A stretch of DNA of 14,435 nucleotides from Dictyoglomus sp. NZ13-RE01 (GTDB taxonomy: Bacteria; Dictyoglomota; Dictyoglomia; Dictyoglomales; Dictyoglomaceae), in contig NIRF01000021.1 of NCBI GenBank assembly GCA_002878375.1, forward strand, positions 1 through 14,435, written 5' to 3'. A model generated the notes under the pieces. The model searched no databases. It saw only the letters and a program-made list of their open reading frames with translations, and had not been told where the DNA came from. Every line of letters starts with the position of its first letter. Position 1 is the first letter of the stretch. Shown here one piece after another: positions 3,566 to 7,524 of this stretch. A program made the translations under genes and the position numbers.

Positions 3566-5041
3566 ATGGAAGATAGATTTTTAGGAGAGGCTTTAACATT
3601 TGATGATATTTTATTAGTACCAGCATATAGTGAGGTTCTTCCCAAGGATGTCTCGGTAGACACTTATCTTACGGAAAGAATTCATTTGAATATACCTATT
3701 TTGAGCTCTGCTATGGATACAGTTACGGAAGCAAGAATGGCAATTGCTATGGCAAGAGAAGGTGGATTAGGCATCATCCATAGAAATATGAGTATTGAGA
3801 GACAGGCGGAAGAAGTGGATAAAGTAAAAAGATCTGAGCATGGAATGATTACAGATCCTATTTTTCTTACTCCTGACCAAACTGTAGGCGATGCTCTTGC
3901 TTTAATGGCAAAATATCATATCTCTGGTCTTCCTGTGGTGGAAAAGAATGGAAAGCTTGTAGGAATTGTAACAAATAGAGATTTGAGGTTTGAGACAGAT
4001 ATGAATAGAAAGGTTTCTGAAGTGATGACTAAGGAGAATCTTATAGTGGCTCAGGTGGGAATTACTATTCAGTCCGCCCAGGAGATACTACAAAAATATA
4101 AAATAGAAAAGTTGCCTATAGTTGATAAGGAATTTAAACTTAAAGGCTTAATTACTATTAAGGATATTCAGAAAATGAAGCAATATCCTAATTCTGCAAA
4201 GGATGATAAGGGAAGGCTATTGGTTGGAGCTGCTGTAGGTACAGGAAGTGAGGCTATAGAAAGAGCAAAGGCTCTTTTAGAAGCAGAAGTAGATATGATT
4301 GTGGTAGATACTGCCCATGGACATTCTAAACGGGTTTTGGAAACAGTTAGGGAACTTAAAAAGCTCTGTAAGAATAAGGCGGTTTTAACGGCTGGAAATG
4401 TGGCAACCTATGAGGGTACAAAAGCTCTTATTGAGGCTGGGGCGGATGTGGTTAAGGTGGGGATTGGTCCAGGTTCCATATGTACAACAAGGGTAATTGC
4501 AGGAGTTGGAGTGCCTCAATTTACTGCGATTTTGGAGTGTGCAAGGGCAGGAAGAGAGTATAATGTACCCATTATTGCAGATGGAGGTATTAAGTATTCT
4601 GGTGATATTGTAAAGGCTATTTCTGCAGGAGCCCATGCAGTTATGATTGGAAGTCTACTGGCTGGAACAGAAGAAAGTCCAGGAGAAATTGAGATATATC
4701 AGGGAAGGAGTTTTAAAGTATATAGAGGTATGGGATCTCTTTCCGCTATGAAAGAAGGAGGAAGCGAAAGATACTTCCAAGAAGGGGCGGACAAGTTTGT
4801 GCCAGAGGGAATTGAAGGAAGAGTGCCCTATAGGGGTCCTGTTTCTGAAGTACTCTTCCAGCTTGTTGGAGGGCTTAAGGCTGGAATGGGCTACTGTGGA
4901 GTAAGAAACTTGGAGGAGTTAAGGACAAAAACAAAGTTTGTCAAAATTACCAATGCAGGACTTAGAGAAAGCCATCCCCATGATGTGATAATAACAAAAG
5001 AAGCTCCAAACTATAGTGTTTCTTCTTGGGGGAACCCGTAA
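3566..5041 (+). CDS. guaB: inosine-5'-monophosphate dehydrogenase
   Basis: IMP dehydrogenase oxidises IMP to XMP with NAD+, the committed step of guanine nucleotide synthesis. The 491-residue protein has the standard layout: catalytic barrel, a CBS domain pair inserted at about 95-205, then the rest of the barrel. The active-site loop GPGSICTTR gives catalytic Cys306. The phosphate-binding DGGIKYSGD (339-347) and YRGMGS (386-391), and the mobile flap EGRVPYRG with Arg419 and Tyr422, are all present. The ATG at 3566 follows AGGAGG at 3555-3560, which overlaps the stop of the GH1 gene. The GH1 gene ends 9 bases upstream, so the two are very likely co-transcribed. The last 31 bases overlap, on the opposite strand, the end of the histidine kinase gene. 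Confidence 0.97.
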
Positions 5042-7524
5042 TAGCTATCGGATAGGAAAGCTTTAATTTTTGACATTGGTTGATTAGGATATTGTAAAAA
5101 TTCCTTCCTGATAGTTATACCTTGCTCTATAGAAGTAAAGGCGGTTAGAGCTTGACTAAGTCTTTGTACAAATATTTGTAGTTTTAAGGGATCGAAATCA
5201 GCCACAAATAAATAGAAATGACCTAATCCATGAGAGATATAGTCGGTTGGTCTTAAGAATTGTTTTAGCATTTGGGCTAATTTCTGTCTTAAAACATCCT
5301 TTTCTTTTAGGCTTAGGGTTTGTTCTGAAAATTCGTAGGAAATATGTCCCAAAACAAATTGGATTTCTTTCTCTCTTACCTTTACTAAGGATTGCCAGAC
5401 TAAGGGGAAGAAATAAGGAAGGAAAAGGGTGCCAGTAATAGGATCTACTACAGGAAAATCTCTTGGAAATTCTATAGTAAAGGTGGTCCCTTCCCCTAAC
5501 TTACTATCCACACTAATTTTACCTTTGTGGGCTTCCACTATACTTTTTACTATAGATAAACCAAGACCTGTTCCACTCTTCTTTTTTGTCAAGGATACAT
5601 CCGCTCTGTAGAATCGATCAAAGATATAGGGAAGATGCTCAGGAGCTATTCCCTCTCCTTGATCCGATACCTGTACAACTATATTTTTGATATTATCTTT
5701 GATGGTTACTGTTATATTTCCACCGTTTGGTGAGTATTTAACTGCATTATCTAAAAGGTTGTGAAAAACCTGTGTTAATCTATCTTGGTCACCAGATATC
5801 AATACGGGAAAATCGGGAAAGTTTGTGATAAATTGGTGCTTTTGGGTTTGATTTTGGAAGAAGAATATTCTTCCATTTATTATTTTTTTAAGGTCTACCA
5901 CATCCCTTTTAATTTCAATTCTTCCCGCCTCAATCCTGGAAAGATCCAATAGGTCATTTATCAGTTTTGTAAGTCTATCCGCCTCATTGTTTATAATCTT
6001 AAGATAGTTTTTAGCTCTATCTAAGCTCACATCTTGAGTTAATAATAATTCACTGTAGCCTTTTATGGCAGTAAGGGGAGTTTTCAACTCATGGGATACA
6101 TTAGCTACAAACTCCGATTTCATTCTATCCAATTCTTTTGATAGACTGATATCCCTTACAGCTAAGATAAAGTCTTTAATTTTTTCATTTTCCCATAATG
6201 CAGATAAACTGCATCCTAAAATAATCTCTTTCCTGTTTTGAGGATAGAATTTCATCTCGTATTGGAGAGAGGGCAATTTTTGCTGATACAATCTATCTAA
6301 GGGACAATCTACACAAAGAACATTTCCTTTTAGATCTTTACACTTTAATGTTTCCTTACAATTTTTGTTTATGTCCTCAGGCATCAAGGAGAATAAATTT
6401 TGTGCAGCAGTATTTATTAACTTTATATTCTTATTCACATCCAAGATGATTAGACCATCCGCAGTATTTTCAATTATCTTCATCATTCTTTCTCTTTCAA
6501 TGTTTACCTGATTGTATAAAAGAGCTTTATGGAGAGCTATGGATGCCTCATTAGCAAAGTTTATTACCAATTTTAAATCGTATTCTGTAAAGGGCTTTTT
6601 ATAAACACTGTTTACGATCTCTATAGCTCCAATGATATCATCATTAACTTTTAATGGGGCACATATAACAGAGCCTGTTTTAAAACCTGTGATCTCATCA
6701 AAATAGGGAGAAAATCTCTTATCCTTTAGCACATTGTTAACAACTACTCCTTCTCCCTTTTCTACGACCCATCCTACAAGCCCTTCTCCCTTTTTCAATC
6801 TCTTTCCTAATAGGTTTTTCTCCTTTTCTCCTTTTACCTTTTCAAAGATTAGCTCTTCAGTTTCTTTATCCTTTAAGAAAATTGTTCCTCCATCAGCATT
6901 TAAGAGATATATTGCAGATTCTAATATAGAATTAAATACCTCATCTAAGTCTAAAGAGGAATTTATAATCTGAGTTATTTTGTATTGGGTTTCTGTTTCT
7001 CTCATTTTTTGCTGGAGCTTCAAGGTTTCCCTTCCTACATAACTTAGGAAGAAGGATAGAGTAAGAGAGAGAAAGCCCATTTCTGCAACCCTTGAAAGGG
7101 CAGTGCTCAGGATTATCTCCTTTTTCTGCAAAATCCCAAAAAATAAAAAGATGAGAGTAACTAAAAGGGCGGAAGTGACAGAAGTACTGAAATCGTATCT
7201 TAAGGTAGCGGATAATATGGGAAAGAGTAGAAATAGATAAAGAGGGCTAACAACCCCTCCTGTTAGGTAAACTAAAACTGCAATTAAGATAGAATCAATA
7301 GAGGCAAAGATCTGGTGTTTGTAGAAAAAGGGATATGTATAGACAGGGAAGAATGTAGTAAATAATGTGTATATGGAAAAAATAATTAGTAATATATTAA
7401 AGATATGGGGATATGAAGTTGGTATAATATCCAGTTTAATTAGGATAAGGGCAACTAAAAAGAATATGCCCCTAATTAAAGATATTACCTTCTCCTTTTT
7501 TATATTCTCCTCAAAACCTTTCAT
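5011..7524 (-). CDS. membrane sensor histidine kinase: 6TM-GAF-PAS-HisKA-HATPase-degenerate GGDEF-like
   Basis: This 837-residue sensor kinase starts with six hydrophobic segments (about 13-31, 39-59, 76-90, 95-108, 116-132, 147-163). These are followed by a short coiled linker, a GAF domain (about 190-335), a PAS domain (about 345-462), HisKA with phospho-acceptor His478 in VSHELKTPL, and an ATPase domain with the N box (Asn589, Asn593), DQGEG at 621-625 and [10 protein letters not shown] at 651-660. All kinase residues look intact. The PAS domain holds four cysteines (389, 395, 404, 407). Residues about 690-837 go beyond a normal kinase end and resemble a GGDEF domain (DPITG at 694-698, RPTDYI near 758-763) with the GGDEF site replaced by GLGHF. 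The ATG lies one base past the regulator's stop, with AGGAG at 7531-7535, so translation is probably coupled. The signal sensed is unknown. Confidence 0.9.

Follow-up and report, generated by a model that had tools for sequence, protein, structure and literature searches.

The kinase gene and its surroundings

The window, meaning the whole stretch of 14,435 nucleotides from Dictyoglomus sp. NZ13-RE01 that was analysed, contains on its minus strand a two-gene unit in which a response regulator gene precedes the gene of a sensor histidine kinase. The two genes and the core domains of the kinase are located as follows.

7526-7891, minus strand: single-domain response regulator (REC) of 121 aa, directly upstream of the kinase and its conserved partner (Pfam and synteny)
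5011-7524, minus strand: sensor histidine kinase of 837 aa (open reading frame list and Pfam)
5923-6123, minus strand: HisKA domain, aa 468-534, with the H-box at aa 472-484 (Pfam and motif positions)
5461-5793, minus strand: HATPase_c domain, aa 578-688, with the N, G1, F and G2 motifs present (Pfam and motif positions)

From the N- to the C-terminus the kinase can be divided into a hydrophobic N-terminal region (aa ~10-139), a GAF domain (aa 192-331 by Pfam), a PAS domain for which the Pfam match is weak and below its curated cut-off, the HisKA and HATPase_c domains, and a degenerate GGDEF tail; the protein is membrane-bound by prediction. Both domains of a HisKA-class histidine kinase are found together with the H, N, G1, F and G2 motifs, the N-box lying at aa 588-599 and G2 (GTGLGL) further on, and the set of core motifs looks complete. 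The PAS region also holds four cysteines (C-x5-C-x8-C-x2-C, aa 389-407, positions 6304-6360, minus strand) which are invariant in 7/7 orthologues and could be ligands of a metal or Fe-S cluster, hinting at the signal of the kinase.

A single base separates the REC and kinase genes. The REC open reading frame was listed from position 7963, which is probably too early; an internal ATG at 7891 fits better, as it follows a GGGGAG-like site and gives the usual REC of 121 aa. At the other end, the kinase gene and guaB converge and their 3' ends overlap by 31 bases (5011-5041), with overlapping ends in some relatives too. The kinase with its tail is present in all seven Dictyoglomota genomes examined, always as a REC-kinase pair, and a scan of contigs gave one relative, the same contig as that of genome G006. 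The syntenic block UvrD-MIP18-REC-HK-GuaB is conserved, with two short contigs showing REC-HK-GuaB alone.

Further along the window lies a gene for an HD-GYP-type protein (10798-12090, minus strand) with two tandem HD_5 matches, of which the N-terminal one is much weaker. The original prediction put it at 3.3 kb from where the two-gene unit begins. That distance applies to the start of the kinase gene; with the REC gene starting at 7891, the unit itself begins 2.9 kb away. A link between the two was rejected, as it is not conserved: the gene is absent from the 19-kb neighbourhoods of four relatives and lies outside the syntenic block. Its proximity to the kinase is probably incidental.

The C-terminal tail and its relation to GGDEF domains

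The region that follows the HATPase_c domain shows the following features, all on the minus strand.

5014-5460, minus strand: degenerate tail of predicted GGDEF fold, aa 689-837 (profile comparison, predicted structure, conservation in 7/7 genomes)
5431-5445, minus strand: DPITG, aa 694-698, equivalent to the D-x-LTG that opens GGDEF domains (D, P and T invariant in the seven orthologues)
5404-5418, minus strand: PYFFP, aa 703-707, start of helix 1, invariant and lineage-specific (orthologue alignment)
5329-5349, minus strand: GHISYEF, aa 726-732, strand 1, expected site of the metal-ligand Asp (DIDxF) (alignments)
5242-5253, minus strand: RPTD, aa 758-761, equivalent of the RxxD motif or I-site (alignment)
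5215-5235, minus strand: SHGLGHF, aa 764-770, equivalent of the R-Y-GGDEF hairpin, with the first G and the F kept and the signature destroyed (alignment)

GGDEF domains usually come after a helical stalk or a REC domain. Here the HATPase_c match stops at aa 688 and DPITG begins at aa 694, which leaves a linker of ~5-7 residues and makes the tail a direct fusion, unlike a hybrid of the SgmT type, in which a REC domain lies between kinase and GGDEF. As DPITG begins only six residues past the end of the HATPase match, the tail would be fixed near the ATP-binding domain.

Family libraries give little indication of what the tail is. At the curated cut-off Pfam yields no significant match past aa 688 of the kinase, none of the seven tails matches the GGDEF family (PF00990) even with the E-value limit relaxed to 10, and for residues 689-837 there is no NCBIfam match of note either. 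DAP epimerase, Pet127 and DUF5407 (Pfam E ~0.09-0.1) were rejected as the identity of the tail, being chance-level matches that are not shared by the family and are contradicted by the fold.

Profile comparison is more informative. When a profile of the seven tails was aligned by hhalign with a profile of the genome's own seven GGDEF domains, the two matched with a probability of 90 and a P-value of 1.7e-6, with 105 columns in register. The score of 42.8 compares with a maximum of 22.0 among 500 column-shuffled profiles and with 12.5 for the reversed profile. The tail of the window protein is also recognised by a model built from ordinary GGDEF domains, with an E-value of 2.8e-7 in a set of seven sequences. 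Tail-only searches, covering up to 386 genomes, led outside the family mostly to true GGDEF proteins as top matches, aligned from DPLTG, together with some chance matches, and among the sub-threshold profile matches in the PDB three of five were GGDEF-type proteins, two of which align from the DPLT segment. The resemblance of the tail to GGDEF domains exceeds chance.

The predicted fold leads to the same family. An AlphaFold2 model of the window tail, for which the input alignment consisted of the seven tails only and held no GGDEF sequences, reached a pLDDT of 88.9 and a pTM of 0.83, with its elements in the order helix-strand-helix-strand-strand-helix-strand-helix. Among the 50 Foldseek matches listed from the PDB there were exclusively GGDEF structures (best E 4.7e-8), and structural re-alignment with such structures gave Z-scores of up to 14.7 and an rmsd of 3.0 over 136 residues. 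The shorter tail from the sister genus, modelled as the first sequence of its own alignment, gave a pLDDT of 85.1 and again exclusively GGDEF-containing structures among the matches listed (best E 1.4e-7); the GGDEF domain of PleD is among the structural matches of the tails. By both models, the tail has a predicted GGDEF fold. The original prediction of a degenerate GGDEF-like domain after the ATPase domain is therefore confirmed by the profile score against shuffles and by predicted structures from two genera; its motifs DPITG, RPTD and GLGHF lie where they were placed (aa 694-698, 758-761 and 764-770), and for residues 689-837 a GGDEF-like fold is indeed what the structure prediction gives, every listed match being to GGDEF.

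Catalytic residues, the I-site and possible ligands

That the catalytic residues are gone was part of the same prediction and is borne out by all seven tails. An Asp at the DxD metal position in strand 1 is absent from each of them in either alignment (H/Y/N/R/K or S/E/Y/A stands there instead), and the GG(D/E)EF signature has given way to GLGHF, GVGHF or GF[DEN]RF. Due to the loss of the metal-binding Asp and of the signature, diguanylate cyclase activity of the tail is very unlikely. An inactive A-site is also a feature of I-site receptors of the SgmT or PopA type.

A kinase ending in a dead cyclase domain had been described as an unusual order, which it is, but it is not unprecedented, with SgmT (PMC3509222) and the HK-GGDEF combination GSU3350 (PMC1183210) as earlier cases of a kinase joined to GGDEF. 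SgmT of Myxococcus xanthus has the order kinase-REC-GGDEF with an inactive A-site (GGGVF) and is a c-di-GMP receptor via its RxxD motif; binding of c-di-GMP relocates the protein and leaves autophosphorylation and phosphotransfer unaffected (PMC3509222). A GAF domain, a kinase and a C-terminal GGDEF domain with an inactive A-site are found in both proteins. However, SgmT is soluble, carries REC in its chain and keeps RxxD in its six myxobacterial homologues (PMC3509222), whereas the Dictyoglomus kinase is predicted to be membrane-bound, has its REC in a separate gene, and bears a GGDEF domain that is fused directly to HATPase_c, is much more degenerate and does not conserve RxxD. GSU3350 of Geobacter sulfurreducens, named as an HK-GGDEF combination in the Galperin 2005 census (PMC1183210), likewise joins a histidine kinase and GGDEF in one chain, a likeness drawn from its naming there. 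The modified GGDEF domain of GdpP (COG3887) in the same census (PMC1183210) is fused to a DHH phosphoesterase, while the Dictyoglomus tail sits on a kinase. In PleD and other REC-GGDEF regulators REC and GGDEF also work together, but the active GGDEF domain is on the regulator, whereas here a dead one belongs to the kinase and REC is a protein of its own. The kinase-GGDEF order is not new; the differences here are the direct ATPase fusion, the extreme degeneration, the separate REC gene and the lineage-wide retention.

As in SgmT, the RxxD remnant might bind c-di-GMP and thereby control or relocate the kinase, which would make the tail a c-di-GMP receptor. The RPTD of the window protein is in register with the I-site, and the genome, with seven GGDEF matches and HD_5 matches in several genes, has neither a PilZ match nor an EAL match that passes the cut-off, two MshEN proteins being the only familiar c-di-GMP receptor type found. 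No c-di-GMP-I riboswitch was found in the genome by a search that gave little signal in control genomes. This explanation is nevertheless doubtful, as RxxD is intact in only three of the seven orthologue tails (RPTD in the window, RPND in two) and broken in four (RPTTD in two, KPND in two) but kept in each of the genome's seven true GGDEF domains, and its Asp lies one residue too close to the signature. Binding of c-di-GMP, one of the possibilities named in the original prediction, is therefore not favoured as a conserved role. Since RPTD is intact in the window protein, the tail could still be able to bind c-di-GMP in this species; if so, a lineage that has cyclases but in which no PilZ protein was found would have a candidate receptor in this tail.

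Some inactive GGDEF domains bind GTP allosterically. A similar role, in which GTP, ATP or some other nucleotide occupies the former active-site cleft of the tail and the tail signals this to the kinase, would suit the GGDEF fold retained in the predicted structures, and guaB, which serves GTP synthesis, is a conserved downstream neighbour, though a convergent one. Nucleotide sensing of this kind is improbable given that 7/7 tails are without the metal Asp and the GGDEF signature and that the Asn-Asp segments which hold the guanine are not conserved in the seven tails.

Conservation of the tail and its proposed role in the REC-kinase pair

Across the seven tails the DPxT, PYFFP, YEF and HG...FY positions are invariant, and the start reads DPxTG or DPxTK. 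The dN/dS of the tail is ~0.08 in two close pairs compared to ~0.02-0.10 for the other domains, rough values with several dS near saturation; it resembles that of the transmembrane part and exceeds that of the ATPase domain. These estimates point to purifying selection on the tail. Between genera, on the other hand, it is the least conserved domain of the kinase with ~35% identity versus ~73% for HATPase, and its length differs (~149 versus 129 aa). Such faster change is compatible with a domain under loose constraint and equally with a specific interface.

The distribution of the fusion was followed with a profile spanning the junction of ATPase domain and tail. Among 386 genomes, with at most ten candidates per genome scored, there was no full-length match outside the seven Dictyoglomota, so that other kinase-GGDEF fusions may exist; the remaining matches listed were ATPase-only or ran into stop codons. 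A keyword search of the literature found no paper describing the Dictyoglomus kinase.

A reading of the tail as the decaying remnant of a once-active HK-GGDEF fusion, without present function, would agree with its low conservation between genera and its variable length but is very improbable in view of the dN/dS in the two close pairs, the absence of stop codons and frameshifts in seven genomes, invariant motifs unlike those of canonical GGDEF domains and confident predicted folds in both genera.

The tail is best explained, and probably so, as a former cyclase domain that persists, without catalytic function, as a module of a REC-kinase pair that is specific to the Dictyoglomus lineage, where it would tune the kinase and/or dock REC or another protein. 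This reading is based on the GGDEF homology, the predicted fold, the catalytic loss, the direct HATPase fusion, the REC-HK pairing and the purifying selection. Having lost its diguanylate cyclase activity, the GGDEF domain would be attached to the mobile ATP-binding domain and lack the helical stalk by which cyclase domains are normally paired, and an attachment of this kind is likely to bias movement and/or dock a partner. The tail may restrict or bias how the ATPase domain moves when the kinase switches between its autokinase and phosphatase states, an effect on kinase motion that we infer from its position in the chain; alternatively or in addition, it may dock the partner REC or another protein. 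It is possible, as was originally predicted, that the tail steers the kinase or binds its REC partner. Nucleotide binding in a conserved way would not be part of its role. More tentatively, in a single deep-branching lineage of thermophiles the tail may have become a ligand-free structural regulator, fixed on the kinase ATPase domain, that controls phosphotransfer to a single-domain REC encoded separately.

The tail illustrates how strongly a GGDEF domain can diverge while its fold, by prediction, and the selection on it are maintained; family libraries miss such strongly drifted GGDEF domains when they sit on kinases. Should the tail set the kinase output without a ligand, it would represent a distinct way to control a two-component system.
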